Positions 51,882 through 64,000 of a DNA stretch of 64,000 nt are shown here, one piece after another (positions within the stretch are counted from its first letter, which is position 1; each line of letters begins with the position of its first letter). The DNA is taken from assembly GCF_009649955.1 (NCBI RefSeq), contig NZ_CP045875.1, positions 62,001 through 126,000 of the forward strand. Reading direction: 5' to 3'. This DNA comes from Heliorestis convoluta. GTDB lineage: Bacteria; Bacillota; Desulfitobacteriia; Heliobacteriales; Heliobacteriaceae. The notes beneath the pieces are model-generated. The model was not told the DNA's origin. It saw only the letters and a program-made list of their open reading frames with translations, and ran no database searches. The position numbers and the translations under genes are program-made.

Positions 51882-53177
51882 ATGATTGAACGTTACACAC
51901 TACCGGAGATGGGCGCTATCTGGGCAGATCAGAATCGGTTTCAAAAGTGGCTTGATATTGAAGTAGCTGCTTGCGAGGCGTTGGCAGAGCAAGGAAAAAT
52001 TCCTCGTGAAGCTTACGAAGTCATTCGCGACAAAGCAGGCTTTAATGTGCAGCGTATCTTAGAAATTGAAGAAGTTACCAAGCATGATGTACTTGCCTTC
52101 TTAACTTGTGTGGCCGAGTATATCGGTGAAGAGTCAAAGTATGTTCACATGGGCATGACATCTTCCGATGTCCTTGACACAGCTCTTTCCTTACAAATGA
52201 AAGAAGCAGGAGAATTGATTGTTGCTAAACTGAAAAAACTTCGTCAAGTCATCGGTGAAAGAGCCATTGAACACAAGTACACAGTTATGGTTGGAAGAAC
52301 GCACGGTATACACGCCGAACCTGTTACTTTTGGTCTTAAGATGGCACTCTGGTACGATGAAGTAGGACGCTCTATTACAAGAATGAATCATGCTATTGAA
52401 ACGATTCGCGTGGGTGCCATCTCTGGTGCTGTAGGAACTTTTGCGCAAATCGATCCTTCTGTCGAAGAGTTTGTTTGCAAGCGCTTAGGTCTGAGACCGG
52501 CTCCTATTTCTACGCAGGTCATTCAAAGAGACCGCCATGCTGAGTATATAACGACACTGGCTGTTGTTGCCAGTTCTCTCGATAAGTTTGCAACTGAATT
52601 TAGAAACTTACAACGTACCGATATCCATGAAGTAGAAGAATCTTTCAGCAAAGGCCAGAAAGGTTCCTCCGCCATGCCTCATAAGAAAAACCCCATCACA
52701 TCAGAGCGAATCTCCGGACTTTCTCGAGTTCTTCGTGGTAACGCCATTGCAGCGCTAGAAAATGTGGCCCTCTGGCACGAGCGTGATATTGCCCACTCTT
52801 CCGTAGAACGTGTTATCATTCCGGACTCTACCATTTTGATGGACTACATGTTAAAGAAAATGATTGATGTGGTAGAAAACCTTAAGGTTTTCCCAGAGAA
52901 TATGCAGAAAAACTTAGAGAAGACACTAGGTCTTGTCAATAGTCAGCGGGTTATGTTGGCTCTCGTTGATAAGGGCATTCTTCGCGAAACAGCCTACCAC
53001 TGGGTACAACGGAATGCTCTTAAGGCCTGGGAGATCAAAAAGCCTTTCAAAGAGCTTGTTCTACAGGATGAAGAGATTATGGCGAAAATAACAGCAGAAG
53101 AAGTGGAAGGGCTATTTGATTACGATTACCATACCAAACATGTAGATACCCTCTTTAAGCGCGTTGGTCTGGCCTGA
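51882..53177 (+). CDS. purB: Adenylosuccinate lyase PurB
   Basis: A 431-residue homotetrameric lyase for SAICAR and adenylosuccinate. The fumarase-superfamily signature [11 protein letters not shown] is complete (catalytic Ser loop), and [11 protein letters not shown] and [12 protein letters not shown] carry active-site His and Ser. AAGGAGGA lies upstream. First gene of purB-C-S-F-M-N-H-D behind the riboswitch. Confidence 0.97.
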
Positions 53178-53212
53178 GGTCTTGGCTTTTAGAAAGGTGG
53201 GTCCCTACGAAC

Positions 53213-53938
53213 ATGGCTCCAATCGAAAAGTTAGAACAGCTTTACGAAGGTAAGGCAAAAAAAGTTTATAAAACGACAGATCCTGATATTGTATGGATCG
53301 AGTATAAAGACTCGGCAACAGCATTTAATGGACTCAAAAAAGAAGAAATACCGAACAAAGGCATTCTCAACAATCGTATTACCGCTCTTTTCTTTCAGTA
53401 TCTAGAAGAGAGAGCCATTCCTACCCACTTTGTAGAGCTTCTCAACGATAGAGAAATGCTTGTCAAAGCCTTAGAAATTCTTCCTGTGGAAGTCGTTGTT
53501 CGCAATCGAGCGGCTGGTTCTTTAGGCAAACGGATCGGGCAAGAAGAAGGAACTCTTTTGCCGAAGCCAATTTTAGAGTTTTACTATAAAGATGATGGCT
53601 TAGGAGATCCTATGATTAATGAATACCATATAGATGCCATGGGTTGGGCGACGAAAGAGCAGATGATACAAGTCAAAGAAATTGCTTTACAAGTAAACAG
53701 CCTTTTAATCGATCTAATGGAGCAAGTTAACATTGACCTTGTAGATTTTAAGTTAGAGTTTGGACTTCATAAAGGGCAAGTGTTGCTGGGTGATGAGATT
53801 TCGCCAGATAACTGCCGCTTTTGGGATCAAGAAACGAAAGAAAGGTTAGACAAAGACCGCTTTCGCCATGACCTAGGTGGTATAGAAGAAGCCTATCAAG
53901 AGATTCTACGTCGTCTAGAAAGCAAACTGCTTACGTAG
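53213..53938 (+). CDS. purC: SAICAR synthetase PurC
   Basis: A 241-residue ATP-dependent ligase joining CAIR with aspartate. It opens [16 protein letters not shown] and has [11 protein letters not shown] and [21 protein letters not shown] in the catalytic region. Second gene, 35 bp after purB. Confidence 0.97.
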
Positions 53939-53954
53939 GGAGGCCTTTATCTTC

Positions 53955-54206
53955 ATGTATAAGGCCCGCATCATCATTACTTTAAAAGAAATCATACCCG
54001 ATCAAGAGGGAGAGGCGTTGTTACAAGCTTGTCACGATCTATCGCTCAATAAGATCAAGCAAGTACGTACAGGACATTATATAGAGATGGTTATTGATAG
54101 TGAAAACAAGCTGGACGCGGAAAAGCAGTTGAAAGCATGGATCGAGAGTGCTTTATACAATCAAGTCATAGAGCAGTTCAAGATTCAGCTTGAAGAAATA
54201 AAATAA
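53955..54206 (+). CDS. purS: FGAM synthase small subunit PurS
   Basis: An 83-residue PurS that bridges PurQ and PurL in the Gram-positive three-part FGAM synthase. Family pattern YKARIIITLKEIIPDQEGEAL near the N-terminus. It follows purC by 16 bp. PurQ and PurL, which normally come next, are not here; purF follows instead. Confidence 0.92.
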   Translation: MYKARIIITLKEIIPDQEGEALLQACHDLSLNKIKQVRTGHYIEMVIDSENKLDAEKQLKAWIESALYNQVIEQFKIQLEEIK

Positions 54207-54232
54207 ATAATCATCTGGCAGGAGGCCAAATC

Positions 54233-55672
54233 ATGTCTATAGATGGCATTCACGATCTCCCCTGGGACAAAATGGAGGAGGAGTGCGGGGTGATCGGAAT
54301 CTACGGTCCGGGCAAAGAAGTTGCCCGGTTGGCTTATTTCGGTATGCACGCATTACAGCATCGCGGTCAAGAAAGTGCAGGTATGGCTGTGGGAGATGGT
54401 CAAGAGATTTCCCTTCACAAAGCCATGGGACTCGTTACAGAAGTATTTCCTGAAAAGAAAATCGGGGAACTTCAAAATGAAAAAAGTCAAGTTGCCATTG
54501 GTCATGTACGCTATTCAACAACGGGGTCAAGCCTTGTTAGCAATGCCCAGCCCCTCGTTTTTCGATATGCCAAAGGGATGTTAGCAGTAGCGCACAACGG
54601 AAATCTTACCAATGCAGCAGAACTGCGCCAAGATCTGGCCGTTACGGGTGCAGTTTTTCAAACGACGACGGATACAGAAGTTATTGTCAATTTACTGGCG
54701 CGCTATAGCCAATCTTCTCTAGAAGAAGCGCTAATGAAAGTGATGATTGACATTAAAGGTTCTTATTCGATCTTAGTAATGACAGAAGATCGGATCTTGG
54801 GTATGCGCGATCCTTACGGCGTCCGCCCTCTTTGTCTCGGTCGTTTAGATAATGCCTATATATTGGCTTCTGAATCTTGTGCTCTCGATACGATGGGAGC
54901 TACCTTTATCCGCGATATTGAGCCTGGAGAAATTGTCGTCATAGACAAAAAAGGTCTTACTTCTCTCAAAGCGTTAACACCTTTGCGCAGAGCTTCCTGT
55001 ATCTTTGAATATATCTATTTTGCTCGCCCTGACTCGGTTATTGATGGAATCTGGGTGAATTTAGCGCGCCGTGCAATGGGTCGCCAATTGGCTCAAGAAG
55101 TTCAAATCGATGGGGATATCGTAATCGGCGTTCCTGACTCAGGGACAGCTGCCGCCATTGGCTACTCTTTAGAATCAGGCATTCCTTTTGAAGAAGGCCT
55201 AATGAAAAACCGCTATATTGGACGTACTTTTATTCAACCGACGCAAGAGATGCGAAGTCAGGCGGTTCGTTTAAAGCTCAATGCTATCTCCAAGGCCGTA
55301 GAAGGCAAGCGCGTAATTATGATTGATGACTCTATTGTTCGCGGTACAACGAGCGGAAAAATTGTACAGATGTTACGTCAAGCAGGGGCGAAAGAAGTGC
55401 ATATGCTTGTATCATCGCCACCGATTACCTACCCTTGTTACTACGGCATTGATACAGCCGTGCGCAAAGAATTAATTGCTGCTGTGAAAACCATTGAAGA
55501 GATTCGGGAATTAATTGGGGCAGACAGCCTGCATTATCTTACCGAAGAAGGCATATTGAATGCAATTGCTGAACAAGGCGAAGGCTTGACCTGTAAAGAT
55601 TTTTGTACAGCTTGTTTTTCCGGAGATTACCCAATTGAAGTAACTGATAAGCAGGGTTCCTCCTGCTGCTAA
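54233..55672 (+). CDS. purF: Amidophosphoribosyltransferase PurF
   Basis: A 479-residue enzyme that commits PRPP to purine synthesis. A short propeptide (through MEEE) precedes the nucleophile in CGVIGIYGPG. HALQHRGQESAG, the PRPP loop VIMIDDSIVRGTTS and C-terminal cluster cysteines (CKDFCTACFSGDYP) indicate the self-processing, oxygen-sensitive [4Fe-4S] type of Bacillus. CAGGAGGCC precedes the ATG. Confidence 0.97.
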   Translation: MSIDGIHDLPWDKMEEECGVIGIYGPGKEVARLAYFGMHALQHRGQESAGMAVGDGQEISLHKAMGLVTEVFPEKKIGELQNEKSQVAIGHVRYSTTGSSLVSNAQPLVFRYAKGMLAVAHNGNLTNAAELRQDLAVTGAVFQTTTDTEVIVNLLARYSQSSLEEALMKVMIDIKGSYSILVMTEDRILGMRDPYGVRPLCLGRLDNAYILASESCALDTMGATFIRDIEPGEIVVIDKKGLTSLKALTPLRRASCIFEYIYFARPDSVIDGIWVNLARRAMGRQLAQEVQIDGDIVIGVPDSGTAAAIGYSLESGIPFEEGLMKNRYIGRTFIQPTQEMRSQAVRLKLNAISKAVEGKRVIMIDDSIVRGTTSGKIVQMLRQAGAKEVHMLVSSPPITYPCYYGIDTAVRKELIAAVKTIEEIRELIGADSLHYLTEEGILNAIAEQGEGLTCKDFCTACFSGDYPIEVTDKQGSSCC

Positions 55673-55708
55673 GAACCAGGACCGTTGAAAATTGCGGGAG
55701 GCAAGATT

Positions 55709-56806
55709 GTGTCAACAGATAATAAGAAAGAACAGTCCCAAGAGAGTCTGACCTATGCCCAGGCGGGTGTCGATATTACAGCTGGCAATCGAGCTGTAGA
55801 GCTGATGAAAAGTGCTGTTAAAAGCACTTTTAGACGGGAAGTGCTCACTGACATCGGCGGATTTGGAGGGCTTTTTGCTTTAGATATCAAAAAATATGAA
55901 GAACCAGTTCTAGTATCGGGGACCGATGGTGTTGGTACCAAATTGCGAGTGGCTATGATGATGGATCGTCATGATAGCATTGGCATTGACTGTGTAGCCA
56001 TGTGTGTGAACGACATTCTTGTGCAAGGCGCAGAACCCCTTTTCTTTCTTGACTATCTAGCTGTTGGTAAGCTAGAACCTGAAAAAGTAGCAGCTATTGT
56101 TGGTGGTGTTGCAGAAGGTTGTCGACAAGCAGGATGTGCACTTATCGGTGGTGAGACGGCAGAGATGCCTGGGTTTTACGCGGAAGACGATTACGATATC
56201 GCCGGTTTTACCGTAGGTGTCGTCGATCGCTCTCGGATTATTAACGGCTCTACCATTCGACCTGGTGACTTATTAATTGCTTTACCTTCTTCTGGCATTC
56301 ATAGCAATGGTTATTCCTTAGCACGGAAAGTTTTCTTTGATCACGCTGGTTACACTGTCGATACCTACCTTCCCCAACTAGGTAAAACAGTGGGAGAAGA
56401 GTTGTTAACACCAACTCGGATTTATGCTACTGTAGTGAAAAAGTTACTGGAAGGCGCCTCTGTGAAAGGGATGGCCCATATCACTGGTGGTGGTATTACA
56501 GAAAACCTGCCTCGCATTCTACCGAAAGGAATGCGTGCAGCTGTAGAATTGGGTCGTTGGCCTGCCTTGCCTGTATTCTCTACCATTAAATCGTTGGGCA
56601 ATGTAGCAGAAGCTGAGATGTTGCGCACTTTTAACTGCGGACTCGGTTATATTATTGTGGTTGCACCTGAAGAAGTAGGCAAAGTGAGTGCTCTTATGAA
56701 TGAGATGAATGAAACCTTTTACACCATTGGTGTTATCGAGTCAATACCGGAAAACGAAGAGGCAGCGCCAGAAGTGTACTATCGTGGTACCTTTCCCTGG
56801 GCATAA
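55709..56806 (+). CDS. purM: AIR synthetase PurM
   Basis: A 365-residue FGAM cyclo-ligase. It has [28 protein letters not shown] and [14 protein letters not shown] 55709, 8 nt after GGGAGGC, is preferred over TTG 55685. It forms a dimer that gives AIR, the substrate of PurK. Confidence 0.95.
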
Positions 56807-56845
56807 TGATGATTTGCCATGATATTGCCATAAGGAGGTGGCACC

Positions 56846-57469
56846 ATGACCTTGAAAATCGGCGTTCTCGCTTCAGGGCGAGGCTCGAATCTACAAGCAC
56901 TCCTCGATGCAATTGAAGCAGGCACAGTAGATGGACAAGTTGTACTGGTTGTCTCGGACCGGCAAAACGCCCAGGCTTTAGAACGGGCTTCAGCCAAGTC
57001 GATTCCGGCTGTTCACTTGAGTCCAAAAAATTATAGCGATAGGGCAGCCTACGATCGAGCGCTCGCAGCCCTTTTTAAAGAGCGTGGCGCTGAAGCCGTT
57101 GTGTTAGCAGGTTATATGCGAATTATCTCAAAATCTTTTCTGGAGGCTTTTCCAGAAAAGGTTGTTAACATACACCCCGCACTTTTACCGGCATTCCCTG
57201 GCCTTCATGGACAAAAGCAAGCATTAGATTATGGTGTTCGTTACAGTGGTTGTACAGTTCACTTTGTTGATGAAGGTATGGACACAGGTCCGATTATCTT
57301 ACAAGCAGTTGTTCCTGTGGAAGATGATGATACCGAAGAGACTTTAGCAGCAAAAATTCTAAAAGAAGAGCATCGCTTGTTGCCACAAGCAATACAACTC
57401 TTTTCACAGGGAAGATTGCGCGTAGAAGGGCGAAAAGTGCGAATACTGAAGGAAAAACCTACTTTGTAA
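56846..57469 (+). CDS. purN: GAR transformylase PurN
   Basis: A 207-residue formyl-THF-dependent enzyme. It has VLASGRGSNLQALLDAI, NIHPALLPAFPGLHGQKQA (catalytic His) and HFVDEGMDTGPIILQ (catalytic Asp). ATG behind AAGGAGGTGG. Confidence 0.96.
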   Translation: MTLKIGVLASGRGSNLQALLDAIEAGTVDGQVVLVVSDRQNAQALERASAKSIPAVHLSPKNYSDRAAYDRALAALFKERGAEAVVLAGYMRIISKSFLEAFPEKVVNIHPALLPAFPGLHGQKQALDYGVRYSGCTVHFVDEGMDTGPIILQAVVPVEDDDTEETLAAKILKEEHRLLPQAIQLFSQGRLRVEGRKVRILKEKPTL

Positions 57470-57518
57470 AGAGAAGTAAAGTAGAACAGGGTTATCATAA
57501 ACGGAGGAGGAATCAACT

Positions 57519-59129
57519 GTGAAGCGTCGTGCTTTAATCAGTGTTTCTGATAAATCAGGTGTTGTTGAATTTGCAAAAGCTTTGGTGGACCTAGGCTTTG
57601 AAGTTGTTTCTACAGGCGGTACTTTTCGAACCATCAAAGAAGCAGGCGTAGAAGTCAAATACGTGACAGAAATTACAGGTTTTCCTGAAATTCTAGATGG
57701 ACGAGTCAAGACTTTGCACCCCAAAGTTCATGGTGGTATTTTAGCTCGTCGTACGCCTGATCACTTGCAACAATTGAGCGACAATGATATAACACCGATT
57801 GATGTAGTTGCAGTAAACCTCTATCCTTTCCGCGAAACTGTCGCCAAAGAAGGCGTTACTTTTGAGGAAGCCATTGAAAATATTGACATTGGTGGACCTG
57901 CCATGGTGCGCGCTTCTGCGAAGAACCATGGTGCTGTCACCATTGTTGTCAACCCAGAACGTTATGCAGCCATTGTTGCTGAGTTACAAGAAAAAGGTGA
58001 AGTATCAGATTCCACGCGCCGCCTCCTTGCTTTAGAAGCTTTTGCCCATACGGCAGAATATGACAGTGCGATTGCTAGCTATTTAAAAGGACAATGCGAA
58101 GAGAAGGACCAAGCTGCTGAAGAAAGCGACTGTGGCTTGCAGATTTTTACTGCAGGCACTGTAGAAAAAGTACAAGATCTTCGTTACGGTGAAAACCCTC
58201 ATCAAAAAGCTGCTTTTTATCGAGAAGTAGGCTATGCAGGCGCTGGGGCTGGCACAGCCAAGCAATTGTGGGGTAAAGAACTGTCTTTTAACAATTTGCT
58301 AGATCTGAATGCAGCTTTAGAACTTGTTCGCGAGTTTGAGGAGCCTGCTGTTACCATCATCAAACATAACAACCCTTGTGGCACTGCTATAGCCGCTACT
58401 TTGGAAGAAGCCTATGTAAAAGCTTTTGACGCTGATCCTGTCTCTGCTTTTGGAGGTATTACAGCCTGCAATCGTCCTGTCAATGGGGCAACGGCGACTG
58501 AACTCGTGAAGACCTTCATGGAAGCGGTCATAGCGCCTGCCTATGACGATGAAGCTTTAGAAATCCTGAAGACGAAAAAGAACTTGAGAATTATGGAAGT
58601 AGGAGCTCTTGAAGGAGCAGCTCCCTCTTACGATCTAAAAAAGATTCGCGGTGGTTTCTTGTTGCAAGAAGGCGACTATGGCCAGGTCAAAGAAGAAGAG
58701 TTGAAAGTGGTTACAGAGCGGACTCCTTCTGATGTAGAACTTCGTGATCTTCAGTTTGCTTGGAAAGTAGTCAAGCATGTGAAGTCGAATGCCATCGTAG
58801 TGGCCAAAGACGGCGTGGCCATTGGTGTTGGAGCTGGTCAGATGAATCGCGTAGGCTCTGCTCACATTGCTTTAGAACAAGCAAGAGGGACGGCTATCGG
58901 CACAGAGAAAGAAGCCGCTGCTGATGTAGGGGCCTGGTCCTCTCAAGGTGCTGTGTTAGCTTCTGACGCTTTCTTCCCCTTCAAAGACACTGTTGAAATG
59001 GCAGCGAAGTACGGTATCAAAGCAATCATTCAACCAGGTGGCTCTATGCGCGATGATGAGTCGATTGAGGCTTGCAATCGCTTAGGTATCTCTATGGTCT
59101 TTACATCTATGAGACACTTTAAGCATTAA
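57519..59129 (+). CDS. purH: Bifunctional AICAR transformylase / IMP cyclohydrolase PurH
   Basis: A 536-residue enzyme for the last two steps to IMP. The N-terminal IMP cyclohydrolase has [19 protein letters not shown] and [16 protein letters not shown]. The C-terminal transformylase has [11 protein letters not shown] and [17 protein letters not shown] start behind CGGAGGAGG. Confidence 0.97.
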
Positions 59130-59220
59130 GCGTAGCATTATATATCTTGTTTGGGACTGGCCTGAGGATTTGATTTCTCAGGCCAGATGAACGTAAGGCC
59201 TTTGGAAGGAGAGTTTTTTC

Positions 59221-60540
59221 GTGAAACCATTAAAAGCACAAGGAATGAAAGTGCTCGTTGTTGGTGGCGGCGGACGTGAGCACGCACTAGTCTGGAAGCT
59301 GGCCCAAAGTCCTCGGGTCGAAAAGATTTATTGCGCACCCGGCAATGCAGGCATTGCACAGCTAGCCCAGTCTGTAGATATCAAAGCAGACGATGTGTCA
59401 GCCTTACTCTCTTTTGCCTGGGAAAACAAAATTGATCTAACTGTTGTAGGTCCCGAAGCGCCTCTAGCAGCTGCCATTGTCGACACTTTTCAAGCTCATG
59501 ATATAGCCATTTTTGGACCATCTCAGGCAGCAGCGGAAATCGAAGGCAGCAAAGCTTTCTCTAAAGATTTAATGCAAAAATACCATATCCCAACAGCAGC
59601 TTATGGTGTATTTACTGAAGTCGAACCAGCGTTGGCTTTTATAGACCAATTGGCATCCACGCAGCCCGCCCAAAGCCCTTGCCCTTGTGTCGTCAAAGCC
59701 GATGGCTTGGCAGCAGGCAAAGGTGTGATTGTAGCTGCTTCCGTAGAAGAGGCGAAAGAAGCTGTTCGCTCTATGTTAGAAGGCAACTCTTTTGGTGAAG
59801 CTGGTTCACGAGTTGTTATCGAAGAATATATGGAAGGTGAAGAAGTAAGTATTCTTGCCTTCACCGATGGCGATGTGATCGTACCTATGGTTTCAGCGCA
59901 AGATCACAAACGCATTTTTGACAACGATGAAGGTCCAAACACAGGTGGTATGGGCGCTTACTCACCAGCTCCTGTCTATACAGAAGAGCTTGCTCCAATC
60001 GTAGAAGAAAAAATCTTAAAGCCAACTATAGAGGCGATGAAAGCAGAAGGACGCCCTTATGTGGGTGTTTTGTATGCTGGCTTAATGATCACCCAAGAGG
60101 GCCCGAAAGTGTTGGAGTACAATGCTCGCTTTGGGGATCCAGAGACCCAACCTGTGCTAATGCGTCTAGAAAGCGATCTTGTTGACATCATTGAGGCAAT
60201 TCTACAGAAAAAACTAGATCAACAGACCATTCGCTGGAGTGAAGACGCTACAGTTTGTGTTGTAGTATCAGCGAAAGGCTATCCGAGTGACTACGAAAAA
60301 GGACAAGTTATTACTGGGTTAGACGATGTTCTCGACAATGTACAGATCTTCCATGCTGGAACTACAGAAGCAGATGGTAACATTGTCACCGCAGGAGGTC
60401 GTGTCCTAGGAATCACAGCCAAAGGCAAAGATATTCGCGAAGCCATTGAGCTTGTCTATCGTCAGACTGAGAAAACAACTTTTGCAGGCGCCCATTATCG
60501 CAAAGACATCGGTCGCAGAGCCCTAGAAAGGTTGTCTTAG
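59221..60540 (+). CDS. purD: GAR synthetase PurD
   Basis: A 439-residue ATP-grasp ligase adding glycine to phosphoribosylamine. It has VVGGGGREHALVWKLAQSP, KADGLAAGKGVIVA and GPNTGGMGAYSPAPV. GTG 59221 follows GGAAGGAGAG. Last gene of the pur operon; 90 bp separate it from purH. Confidence 0.97.
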   Translation: MKPLKAQGMKVLVVGGGGREHALVWKLAQSPRVEKIYCAPGNAGIAQLAQSVDIKADDVSALLSFAWENKIDLTVVGPEAPLAAAIVDTFQAHDIAIFGPSQAAAEIEGSKAFSKDLMQKYHIPTAAYGVFTEVEPALAFIDQLASTQPAQSPCPCVVKADGLAAGKGVIVAASVEEAKEAVRSMLEGNSFGEAGSRVVIEEYMEGEEVSILAFTDGDVIVPMVSAQDHKRIFDNDEGPNTGGMGAYSPAPVYTEELAPIVEEKILKPTIEAMKAEGRPYVGVLYAGLMITQEGPKVLEYNARFGDPETQPVLMRLESDLVDIIEAILQKKLDQQTIRWSEDATVCVVVSAKGYPSDYEKGQVITGLDDVLDNVQIFHAGTTEADGNIVTAGGRVLGITAKGKDIREAIELVYRQTEKTTFAGAHYRKDIGRRALERLS

Positions 60541-60666
60541 TTATCATAAATGTGTCTTAAATAGAAATGGGAACCTCCTTCTCTAAATCAGGATGAATTG
60601 CCCACGGAAGTGGCATTCTATAGGGTGTATGAACCCATAACTGATAGCAGGGAAGGAGGTTTCGCT

Positions 60667-61101
60667 ATGTTTCAGCCCATTCGCGATATTATGACGACCG
60701 ATGTAACATCATTACGCTCAGACCAAACACTCGTAGATGCCGCAAAAACAATGAGCTCACTGGATGTAGGTGCCATGCCTATCGTAGACAATGGCAAATG
60801 CGTCGGTATCATTACAGATCGAGACATTGTGATTCGAGCTGTTGCCAATGGTCAGGATGTAAATAGTACAAAGATTCAGTCGGTCATGACCAAAGACTTG
60901 ATTACGGCTTCACCAGACACAGATATTCATGAAGCTGCTGATACTATGGCAGAGCATCAGATTCGACGTCTTCTTATCACAGATAGAGATAAACTTGTAG
61001 GTATCGTTGCTTTAGGCGATCTGGCTGTTATGGACTTTTACGAAGATGAAGCTGGAGAAGCCCTCTCCGATATTTCTGAGCCTTCTCGACCTTTGATGTA
61101 A
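60667..61101 (+). CDS. CBS-domain pair protein
   Basis: A 144-residue stand-alone CBS pair (about 5-60 and 70-125), e.g. IRDIMTTDVTSLRSDQTLVDAA, VGIITDRDIVIRAVANG and KLVGIVALGDLAV. Such modules bind adenine nucleotides and tune partner proteins. ATG 60667 follows GAAGGAGG; an open frame upstream lacks a ribosome site. Possibly co-regulated with the purine genes through read-through. Confidence 0.88.
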   Translation: MFQPIRDIMTTDVTSLRSDQTLVDAAKTMSSLDVGAMPIVDNGKCVGIITDRDIVIRAVANGQDVNSTKIQSVMTKDLITASPDTDIHEAADTMAEHQIRRLLITDRDKLVGIVALGDLAVMDFYEDEAGEALSDISEPSRPLM

Positions 61102-61128
61102 TTGAATCGAGTATAGGTTTTTTAGAAA

Positions 61129-61182
61129 GAAGAGCTCTTGTCATGGCAGAAAAAGCTATAGGCACGAGCTCTTTTCTCTTTT
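61129..61182 (+). terminator. Terminator after the CBS gene
   Basis: AAGAGCTC and GAGCTCTT arms (with extended pairing TTGTC/GGCACG region weak), then TTTCTCTTTT. Confidence 0.65.
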
Positions 61183-61281
61183 ACAGTACCGTAGCCCAAG
61201 GGTACGCTTCATAATTTTTTTACAAAGTAGCCATAATAGGGAATGGATAAGAAAAATTAAAAAAAATAGTAACCTCAAACA

Positions 61282-61310
61282 TTGACACTGAAAACCATTT
61301 TCAGTATAAT
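61282..61310 (+). promoter_or_regulatory. Consensus promoter with a perfect dyad between the boxes
   Basis: TTGACA, then CTGAAAACCATTTTCAG (7-3-7 inverted repeat, exactly 17 bp), then TATAAT. Both boxes are consensus. A dyad filling the spacer is a repressor position, and the half-site GAAAA/TTTTC resembles a Fur-type metal operator. It drives the small gene at 61359. Confidence 0.8.
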
Positions 61311-61358
61311 GAGGCTTAGATAGTACTTTCACCTTCGACTTATGATGGGGTGTAAGGA

Positions 61359-61502
61359 ATGAAACTTCGTAAAGAAGATTTATTTATGAGTTTACTAGCT
61401 TTGGCTTTTTCTTTTCATGGTCTTTGGGGCTTTTCTTACTTGGGAAGAATGGACAAAAAAGAGGAGGTATTAAGAACAAGTGTGTCTTGTCGTCGGAGCT
61501 GA
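61359..61502 (+). CDS. Possible 47-residue peptide upstream of the DUF2325 gene
   Basis: MKLRKEDLFMSLLALAFSFH.. with one hydrophobic stretch (about 9-30) and a polar tail. The ATG lies 50 bp after the TATAAT and has GGGGTG upstream. It overlaps the start of the next gene by 23 bp, so translation may be coupled. Unknown function. Confidence 0.5.
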   Translation: MKLRKEDLFMSLLALAFSFHGLWGFSYLGRMDKKEEVLRTSVSCRRS

Positions 61503-61728
61503 TCGATTGGGAGCTGTAGAGAGATTGTTGCCACCTGAATACAGTAGAGAGGAATATATTCACTGGGATGGAAGAAGTCGTCGTCCTAGTATGTCCAGGG
61601 TAACTAAGGTTGTTGTTCTAACCGGATTTATCAATCATAATGCTGTAAATTACGTCAAAAAAGAAGCCAAAAAACGAGGCATCTCCATGATATTTTTACG
61701 TAGAGGTATCTCTGATTTATCGGCATAA
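61480..61728 (+). CDS. DUF2325-family protein
   Basis: An 82-residue protein that matches the DUF2325 pattern: VVGADRLGAVERLL at the start, EEYIHWDGRSRRP, VVVLTGFINHNAVNYVKKEA and KKRGISMIFLRRG. GTG start with GGAGG about 12 nt upstream. The family is of unknown function, often found near metal or redox genes. The dyad promoter upstream suggests tight regulation. Confidence 0.8.
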   Translation: MCLVVGADRLGAVERLLPPEYSREEYIHWDGRSRRPSMSRVTKVVVLTGFINHNAVNYVKKEAKKRGISMIFLRRGISDLSA

Positions 61729-61822
61729 TCAAAGCTTTAAGAGGTGCGAATTATTAAATTTTGTGAAAAATACAAAATTCAGACCTATAAATATAATAAA
61801 AACATAACAATTGGAAAAAAAT

Positions 61823-61866
61823 AAAAGATTGTACAAGTTTGATATTGTACAATCTTTTTGTATTTT
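61823..61866 (+). terminator. Terminator after the DUF2325 gene
   Basis: AAAAGATTGTACAA and TTGTACAATCTTTT with an 8-nt loop, then TTGTATTTTT. Confidence 0.85.
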
Positions 61867-62280
61867 TATACATTGAAAGTAAGAACAAGGTAAGTAATAA
61901 AAACTGGATATAGAGATAAGAGAAAAGGTTTTATTTTTTTAAGAAAAAAGTTTTTAACTGATAGATAAAAGCAGGGTACTATTAAACATACTAATGATAG
62001 CTCCGACAATCACATATTGACAAAAAAACCCCAATATAAGAGAATGTTTAAGTATGCTCTCTATGCTATTAATATTCGCCTGATGAGGAACTGAAGAAGT
62101 ACAAGATTACAAACGTCGTGATAAGCATCGGCCTATCTTAAGGCTTATTAAATCGATCAAAAAAAGCTCGTCAAAAAATGGCAGAACGGCATTTTGTGTA
62201 AAAAATAACCATAGGAATTTATGAGGGAATGGTTGAAAAGAATTATGTACATTTGATAGAATAATTGCTAGATCCTGAAT
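61867..62280. other. Long AT-rich region without a convincing gene
   Basis: No gene with a start and ribosome site. On the minus strand, 62106-61954 is open and would read like the end of a membrane protein (NSIESILKHSLILGFFCQYV..), but it lacks a start and could be a decayed fragment. 62100-62220 on the plus strand is open in pieces with nothing recognisable. Confidence 0.35.
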
Positions 62281-62283
62281 CAC

Positions 62284-62530
62284 TCTAATTCTTTGCCTGC
62301 GCAGACAGTATGGTGTGTCATTATGTTAGAATTAGGGGGACGAGCTTGTAATGATTTGACAGGATTTCAAGGTTCCAGTGGAGATAGAGGGGGACAATGT
62401 GGTAGTCCCTGATCCGCTGTATTCCTTTCCAACGGGGGTTGGGGAAATTTCCTTTCCTCCCTTTTTTGTGCCTCTTTTCAAGACAGGCCATGCTTTTGTG
62501 TTTTTAGCAAAGATGAGCGAAAGGATCTGA
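62284..62530 (+). other. Structured leader candidate upstream of nhaA
   Basis: CTAATTCT (62284) pairs with AGAATTAG (about 62327-62334) as a closing stem. GGGAC/GTCCC and TTTCCAAC/GTTGG-GAAA hairpins follow, then a pyrimidine-rich run with TTTTTT. It may be a regulatory leader of nhaA; I cannot assign a class. Confidence 0.3.
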
Positions 62531-62577
62531 CAAGTTGAGAAGTTTATTTCTGATTAAGTAAGAGAGGAGTGCTCGCT

Positions 62578-63927
62578 ATTAACAAGCCCGTTTCCATTAC
62601 TGAAAGATTAAAGCGTCCCTTCCAGCAGTTTTTTGAGTTAGAGGCATCAGGCGGGATCCTTCTACTCTTATGCACCGTCCTTGCGCTGATCTGGGCCAAC
62701 TCACCTTTAGGCGAATCCTACATGACCCTTTGGCAAATACCTTTAACCGTTGGTTTTGGTGAATTTATTCTTCAAAAACCTTTGGTGCTATGGATTAACG
62801 ATGGTCTTATGGCCATATTCTTCTTTCTTGTAGGTCTCGAAATTAAGCGAGAAGTTCTACATGGTGAACTAAAATCACCGAGACAATCGGCTTTCCCGAT
62901 TGCCGCTGCTATCGGTGGTATGGTTGTACCTGCTAGTATCTATGCTGCTTTGAACTGGGGTACCGAAGGAATTACTGGTTGGGGTATCCCCATGGCGACA
63001 GATATTGCCTTTGCTCTCGGCGTACTAGCTCTTCTAGGCAAACGTGTACCACTTGCTTTAAAAGTATTTCTTGCCGCACTAGCTATAGTTGACGACCTCG
63101 GTGCTGTTCTTGTTATCGCTATTTTCTACACAGCCGATATATCTTGGATGGCCTTGGGCATCAGTGCCGGCTTCTTGGCTGTGCTGGCTCTAGCTAACTT
63201 TATTGGAGTACGTCATATCCTTGTTTATGTTGTCCTTGGTATTGGTCTCTGGTTTGCCTTCCTTCTCTCTGGTGTACACGCTACCATTGGTGGTGTCTTG
63301 CTAGCAATGACCATCCCTGCAAGCTCTAAGATCAACGCTGAAGAGTTTATGAACCGCACTCGCAGGTTGATCAAAGATTTCGAGAATGCTGGAAATGGTC
63401 GCAAAGGCGAAATCAACATGACAGAGCAACATCAAGTATGCGTACAAGCTTTAGAAACGAATTGTAACCAAGTGGACTCTCCCCTTCATCGTATGGAGCA
63501 TACACTCCATCCCTACGTTTCTTTCTTCGTTATGCCTGTCTTTGCCTTAGCCAATGCCGGCGTTGTCTTTGAAGGCGGCTTTGTAGAGTCCCTGACACAC
63601 CCTGTCAGCCTTGGTGTTATTCTAGGTCTCTTCTTCGGTAAACAGATTGGTGTAACTTTGTTCTCTTATATTGCCGTCAAGGCCGGCTGGGCTTCTTTGC
63701 CGAAAGGTGTTACCTGGACCCACGTATACGGTGTCAGCATGCTGTCTGGTATTGGTTTTACCATGTCTCTCTTTATTGCTGGCTTGGCCTTCGAAGATCA
63801 TGGTCTACTCACACTTTCTAAAGTGGGTATCTTGACAGCTTCCCTCCTTTCTGGTGTTATCGGTTACCTTGTTCTTCGCTATCAAGCTGCTAAAGATGAT
63901 GCTCGTAAAGCACTTTCTGCTTCCTAA
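62578..63927 (+). CDS. nhaA: Na+/H+ antiporter NhaA
   Basis: A membrane antiporter of about 449 residues with roughly twelve helices. It has ASGGILLLLCTVLALIWANSP, DIAFALGVLALLGKRVP and the ion-binding Asp pair in AIVDDLGAV. A longer cytoplasmic loop (about 250-320, with KINAEEFMNRTRRL) is typical of the long NhaA subgroup. No ATG fits: GTG 62569 overlaps the GGAG ribosome site, whereas ATT 62578 is 8 nt after GAGAGGAG, so an unusual ATT start is likely. It exports Na+ in exchange for H+. Confidence 0.92.
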   Translation: MNKPVSITERLKRPFQQFFELEASGGILLLLCTVLALIWANSPLGESYMTLWQIPLTVGFGEFILQKPLVLWINDGLMAIFFFLVGLEIKREVLHGELKSPRQSAFPIAAAIGGMVVPASIYAALNWGTEGITGWGIPMATDIAFALGVLALLGKRVPLALKVFLAALAIVDDLGAVLVIAIFYTADISWMALGISAGFLAVLALANFIGVRHILVYVVLGIGLWFAFLLSGVHATIGGVLLAMTIPASSKINAEEFMNRTRRLIKDFENAGNGRKGEINMTEQHQVCVQALETNCNQVDSPLHRMEHTLHPYVSFFVMPVFALANAGVVFEGGFVESLTHPVSLGVILGLFFGKQIGVTLFSYIAVKAGWASLPKGVTWTHVYGVSMLSGIGFTMSLFIAGLAFEDHGLLTLSKVGILTASLLSGVIGYLVLRYQAAKDDARKALSAS

Positions 63928-64000
63928 ACGGACAAGATGGCAGGTAGCTTTACAGCTATAGTAAGACTTGATAACTGGCTACGTTTTTAGAAGCTGAAAA
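63928..64000 (+). other. Window end, nothing recognised
   Basis: About 70 bp after nhaA with a weak GTAGC/GCTAC stem and GTTTTTAG that may be its terminator; cut by the window edge. Confidence 0.25.

Follow-up and report, generated by a model that had tools for sequence, protein, structure and literature searches.

A predicted Fur operator inside the promoter of a stand-alone DUF2325 gene of Heliorestis convoluta, and the recurrence of Fur-type boxes and feoB near DUF2325 genes

Here, I show that in Heliorestis convoluta a small stand-alone gene of the uncharacterised DUF2325 family is preceded by a near-ideal promoter, the spacer of which is filled by a perfect palindrome resembling a Fur box. 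With a probability of roughly 0.78, judged from sequence comparison, this dyad would be a Fur operator repressing the promoter, the DUF2325 protein being made when iron falls and serving as a ferrous-iron helper. According to the mechanism proposed, when iron is plentiful Fe(II)-loaded Fur (candidate G000:2070868, G000 being the H. convoluta genome) would sit on 61284-61304, over the edge of the -35 element and the spacer, and would shut off the otherwise near-ideal promoter; as iron falls, the promoter would fire and the DUF2325 protein (61480-61728) would be made by way of its own strong ribosome-binding site, a 47-codon open reading frame (ORF) in the leader being presumably incidental.

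As a device, a predicted Fur operator in this textbook occlusion position is well supported but, like any Fur-controlled promoter, ordinary; the interest lies in the family pattern, DUF2325 genes standing under Fur boxes or beside feoB in dozens of genera. The family appears to form a recurrent but neglected element of Fur/Feo biology, and becomes a testable candidate for iron homeostasis, expression data from Campylobacter jejuni pointing the same way. A literature search, regulon databases being outside its scope, returned no description of DUF2325 genes in association with Fur boxes and feoB.

The promoter and the genes downstream

In the window, that is, the whole stretch of 64,000 nucleotides analysed (positions 62,001 to 126,000 of contig NZ_CP045875.1), direct reading of the sequence places a -35 hexamer TTGACA at 61282-61287 and a -10 hexamer TATAAT at 61305-61310, both on the forward strand; the 7-3-7 dyad CTGAAAACCATTTTCAG (61288-61304, without strand) occupies the entire 17-bp spacer between them, as the initial annotation had claimed. 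A rarity of the dyad in its own right was considered and rejected: perfect 7-3-7 palindromes number 4 in the window against 4.7 expected from a first-order Markov simulation, so that the dyad alone is unremarkable. What is remarkable is its position, for the window contains on both strands a single perfect TTGACA-N17-TATAAT, and the dyad sits inside that one. The exact 17-mer CTGAAAACCATTTTCAG likewise occurs once in the window, and an Rfam search of window positions 52000-64000 gave no match at E<=0.5.

The 47-codon ORF, which has a hydrophobic middle (61359-61502, forward strand), overlaps the start of the stand-alone DUF2325 gene (61480-61728, forward strand; 82 aa, GTG start; Pfam PF10087). 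The latter has a ribosome-binding site GAGGAGGT at 61461-61468 on the forward strand, read from the sequence and present in Heliorestis acidaminivorans (L013) too, and is followed on the same strand by an inverted repeat and a T-run resembling an intrinsic terminator (61823-61862, by sequence reading). The protein passes PF10087 narrowly, with 34.8 bits for a gathering cut-off of 33.6, and a search of NCBIfam gave no match; no feo gene adjoins the DUF2325 gene, which is thus not a member of a feo operon. Both the 47-residue peptide and the DUF2325 protein had been annotated as the products under control. The DUF2325 part is supported, whereas the peptide is not supported as a conserved target: it has no relative among the loci compared, and, since the ORF is missing in H. 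acidaminivorans, the conserved target is the DUF2325 gene. The ORF is probably a species-specific leader or a chance ORF.

Upstream, at window positions 60560-60670, the leader 5' of the gene for a CBS-domain protein contains a complementary pair CCTCC...GGAGG which, by eye, appears to be kept in both Heliorestis species and is without an Rfam match.

Which regulator fits the site

The predicted Fur box is the 15-bp core of the dyad, TGAAAACCATTTTCA (61289-61303). It agrees with the Fur-type consensus TGAWAATNATTWTCA (hereafter the W-form) at 13 of 14 positions and is kept in H. acidaminivorans, the score of 13 being partly fitted because the W-form was adopted after the site itself, and a published box, had been seen. 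Two other Fur consensi give 11 of 14 positions for the strict B. subtilis-type form TGATAATNATTATCA and 14 of 19 for the 19-bp box GATAATGATAATCATTATC, the latter in the register GACACTGAAAACCATTTTC (61284-61302, forward strand). A Fur-type inverted repeat is hence found overlapping the core promoter, inside the spacer between the -35 and -10 elements, and the TTGACA hexamer also provides the predicted box with a TGACAC half-site-like repeat.

Against the consensi of the other metal-type regulators, the site reaches at best 9 of 14 positions for the PerR box TTATAATNATTATAA, which it thus does not match, 8 of 14 for Zur and 8 of 16 for MntR; the last of these, which had been named alongside Fur as a regulator worth footprinting, is accordingly a poor fit. 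Among MntR, Zur, CcpA, CodY, LexA, Rex, FNR, NrdR, ArgR and BirA, all compared by their consensi, none fits proportionally better than the Fur forms, CodY coming nearest with 11 of 15. A G at position 2 would tell Fur boxes from PerR boxes.

In its architecture the site follows known systems. The Fur box of E. coli and B. subtilis (7-1-7, 19-bp) and the delta-proteobacterial dFUR box WTGAAAATNATTTTCAW share with it TGAAAA...TTTTCA half-sites in an inverted array, and in Heliorestis too the site lies over the core promoter, with a similar one before feoAB in the same genome. It differs from them in that core position 7 is C instead of T, by C/G outer ends and by its incomplete agreement with the 19-bp form. 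PMC545781, the source of WTGAAAATNATTTTCAW, also lists cTGAAAAcCgTTTTCAa as a Fur site 5' of a feoA-feoB2 operon.

Fur-type boxes and feoB in the DUF2325 family

Matches to PF10087 are found in 37 of the 75 genomes of the class and in 89 of the 398 of the phylum sample. The survey set comprised 101 stand-alone, single-domain DUF2325 genes of 55 genera; DUF2325 domains in open frames above 160 aa, fused or long (e.g. L028, L062, L102, L107, L113, L114, L156 and L169), a frame interrupted by an internal TGA (G079:C1) and a partial match (G056:C185) were left out, and duplicate loci of one gene were counted once (L061 for L012, L010 for L029). Boxes were counted in the 200 bp upstream at a threshold of at least 12 of 14 positions. 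As controls served the upstream regions of 234 uncurated open frames of at least 100 aa from the same loci, with a G+C of 0.46 as against 0.38 for DUF2325; shuffles were mononucleotide.

With the strict consensus TGATAATNATTATCA, the counts for which preceded the adoption of the W-form, a box lies upstream of 30/101 DUF2325 genes (22/55 genera) but of only 3/234 controls, the shuffle mean being 0.45/101. The W-form raises this to 45/101 (31/55 genera; 43/99 when Heliorestis is excluded) versus 6/234 control ORFs and a shuffle mean of 1.7/101, and when upstreams below 42% G+C are taken alone it is found in 33/71 DUF2325 genes versus 3/87 controls. When 140 permuted half-sites are compared in the strict count, TGATAAT comes out on top with 30, and the runner-up, with 14, I read as an overlapping register of it. 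Fisher p for the W-form counts ignores relatedness, hence genus and family counts are given as well: a box or feoB is present in 28 of the 38 family groups.

A feoB gene lies within 1.5 kb of 33/101 DUF2325 genes (15/55 genera), in 32 cases on the same strand, and a fur-like gene is found near three of the survey genes; Pfam searches of representatives confirmed the FeoB, FeoA and FUR neighbours. In this the family is reminiscent of FeoA, FeoC and the FeoB-associated Cys-rich protein (PF12669), all of them small and encoded beside feoB, DUF2325 often following feoB in the same orientation; unlike these, DUF2325 forms a separate Pfam family, and the H. convoluta gene stands alone, away from feoAB. 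The clade to which the latter belongs (FastTree on few columns; seven rows, support 97) has a box only in the two Heliorestis rows and feoB nearby in none, and since the five other rows have neither, it is the Heliorestis promoter itself, rather than close relatives, that carries the case for Fur control there.

Outside the survey stands cj1384c of C. jejuni, a gene encoding a DUF2325 protein (PMC9426514): it is reported as up in a fur mutant and bearing a Fur-repression motif (PMC4491227), and as strongly changed under iron limitation (PMC3815106). Like the Heliorestis gene it encodes a stand-alone DUF2325 protein, and it is under a Fur-family regulator; it belongs, on the other hand, to a different phylum, lies beside katA and is reported to encode a protein of 104 aa and 7 cysteines, whereas the Heliorestis protein has 82 aa and one cysteine.

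The same comparison raises the question of whether the site might be bound by the PerR-like paralogue (G000:1653780), which would place the DUF2325 gene in the peroxide response. Such a paralogue is indeed encoded in the genome, and cj1384c is reported to be PerR-regulated as well, with a strong increase under photo-oxidative stress (PMC9426514). The site, however, fits the PerR consensus less well than the strict Fur consensus, and across the family the PerR form reaches the threshold of 12 of 14 upstream of 5/101 genes as compared with the 30/101 for Fur, so control by PerR is unlikely.

Other neighbourhoods occur in the family. In one subgroup (L011, L146, L155, L161, L165) the neighbours of DUF2325 are, by eye, sulfur amino-acid genes resembling those of cysteine synthase and cystathionine gamma-synthase/lyase, and not feo, a hint of a link to iron-sulfur metabolism. 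A gene for an HD-domain phosphohydrolase stands near DUF2325 in 9 genera (L038, L042-L050 and others; 25 neighbours clustered, one of them confirmed by Pfam); in Desulfovibrio, an HD-domain protein, 'hdd', is predicted to be Fur-controlled (PMC545781). Finally, L150 and L151 have identical DUF2325 proteins and the same neighbours in two different genera, suggesting a mobile element or contamination.

Fur-family proteins and further sites in the genome

Two Fur-family proteins are encoded in the 3,218,981-bp, single-contig genome, in which the following scans were also made. One is nearest to Fur models and is the best candidate for the regulator (G000:2070868; 193 bits with the NCBIfam model for Fur of bacilli, cut-off 220), the other is nearest to PerR (G000:1653780), and both score below the curated NCBIfam cut-offs. 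Scanned with the W-form, the genome yields no exact site and nine with one mismatch, three of which precede genes, namely the DUF2325 gene, feoAB (at about 456-458 kb) and the metal transporter genes cbiM-cbiQ; a Fur-type protein and a similar site at known iron genes are therefore both found in the same genome.

A pattern match by itself is weak evidence, because the six other near matches lie inside ORFs and the excess over the genome is modest or absent: at up to two mismatches the W-form occurs 139 times versus 98 for the reversed pattern, while a degenerate 19-bp pattern modelled on the site itself shows no excess (19+13 versus 17+22 for the control). The loose dyad CTGAAAANNNTTTTCAG is found exactly at two places, and at up to two mismatches at 47 versus 32 for the reversed pattern. 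The search for further copies, proposed in the initial annotation with the proviso that copies at non-metal genes would speak against metal control, thus had a mixed outcome, in that no metal gene stands at the second exact copy (1268814), which falls between two called frames; I take this place to be a broken (frameshifted) enoyl-CoA hydratase gene, and not a promoter.

These scans bear on the proposal that some other, perhaps lineage-specific, repressor uses the dyad and that the resemblance to a Fur box is accidental. Perfect 7-3-7 dyads are as common here as chance predicts and most near matches fall inside ORFs, both of which would be in keeping with it; yet in the sister species the dyad and the -35 element are conserved together (see below), similar sites precede feoAB and cbiMQ, and Fur-type boxes are enriched throughout the family, which makes a coincidence of this kind decidedly improbable.

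At 2178203, a site with two mismatches separates a 248-aa gene that belongs to no family from a divergent operon encoding a 154-aa alanine-rich protein, a 764-aa P1B-type ATPase and a 164-aa second HMA_2-like protein. The ATPase and the 164-aa protein have HMA_2-like starts (GRVRL/GRIRL), both HMA_2 matches being below the Pfam cut-off. Before its first gene the operon carries an imperfect box too, TGATATCTGTTATCA, so that Fur-type boxes stand on both sides of the cluster (G000:C1, about 2,174,700-2,179,000; L022), which I take to be possibly ferrosome (fez)-like. The FezA and FezB proteins of C. difficile are described as Fur-repressed in a review (PMC12574912).

Conservation in Heliorestis acidaminivorans and other heliobacteria

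Outside the genome, the search for close relatives of the DUF2325 gene found a single one, that of H. acidaminivorans (L013), 90% identical and likewise flanked by a CBS-domain-like and an nhaA-like gene; the GTG start of H. convoluta aligns with an ATG there. The best ungapped intergenic block between the two species is precisely the -35 element with the dyad (CATTGACACTGAAAACCATTTTCA / CATTGACGATGAAAACCAATATCA), identical at 20 of 24 positions, which is equalled in 0 of 300 mononucleotide shuffles. The site is therefore conserved in the orthologous promoter of this one other close relative, where the leader is short and the promoter leads straight to DUF2325.

That there is no operator at all, only a strong constitutive promoter with a spacer palindromic by accident, is very improbable: in H. 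acidaminivorans the dyad is imperfect and the spacer 18 bp long, as this would allow, yet a spacer is normally free to vary, the core is identical at 13 of 15 positions between the species, and the H. acidaminivorans core TGAAAACCAATATCA retains 12/14 positions of the Fur-type box.

Fur-like control, the most natural guess at the outset, is supported by the match to TGAWAATNATTWTCA, the block shared with the sister species, the sites at feoAB and cbiMQ, and the family-wide enrichment in boxes and feoB.

In seven other heliobacterial genomes (G002-G008), a search with the H. convoluta DUF2325 protein found no match; DUF2325 occurs there in frames above 500 aa in five genomes and is absent from two.

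The DUF2325 protein

In a 29-row alignment G6 and H53 are invariant and D8 nearly so, and the H. convoluta protein carries these family residues. A model built with AlphaFold from two sequences (pLDDT 72) has strands and helices in alternating order. A profile search of the PDB gave nothing below E 0.17, Foldseek no clear fold match (best E 0.28) and VIA-align a best Z of 7.6, below the informative level of that tool. The model would correspond to a generic Rossmann-like arrangement, from the fold of which no function is read. In Rossmann-like folds, loops after strands commonly form the ligand site, and from the model a ligand site may be placed near the loops of D8 and H53.

Most likely, DUF2325 would be a small cytosolic Rossmann-like protein helping to handle ferrous iron in starvation in an auxiliary role to FeoB-type uptake; a cytosolic helper of the ferrous-iron economy is the best inference. 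The wider proposition is one on which the evidence is evenly balanced: stand-alone DUF2325 could be an unrecognised and widespread component of ferrous-iron biology across the sampled Bacillota-type phylum and in Campylobacter, namely a small cytosolic protein that works with FeoB-type uptake (or in allocating iron during starvation) and is derepressed from Fur, with a ligand site made up of the G6-x-D8 loop and H53.

A second DUF2325 protein of the genome (L027:1202-2704) is 501 aa long and carries the domain close to its C terminus. PADLOC returned for it a weak match to LmuB only (E 0.0043) and no clear defence match; long proteins similar to it are found in other heliobacteria.
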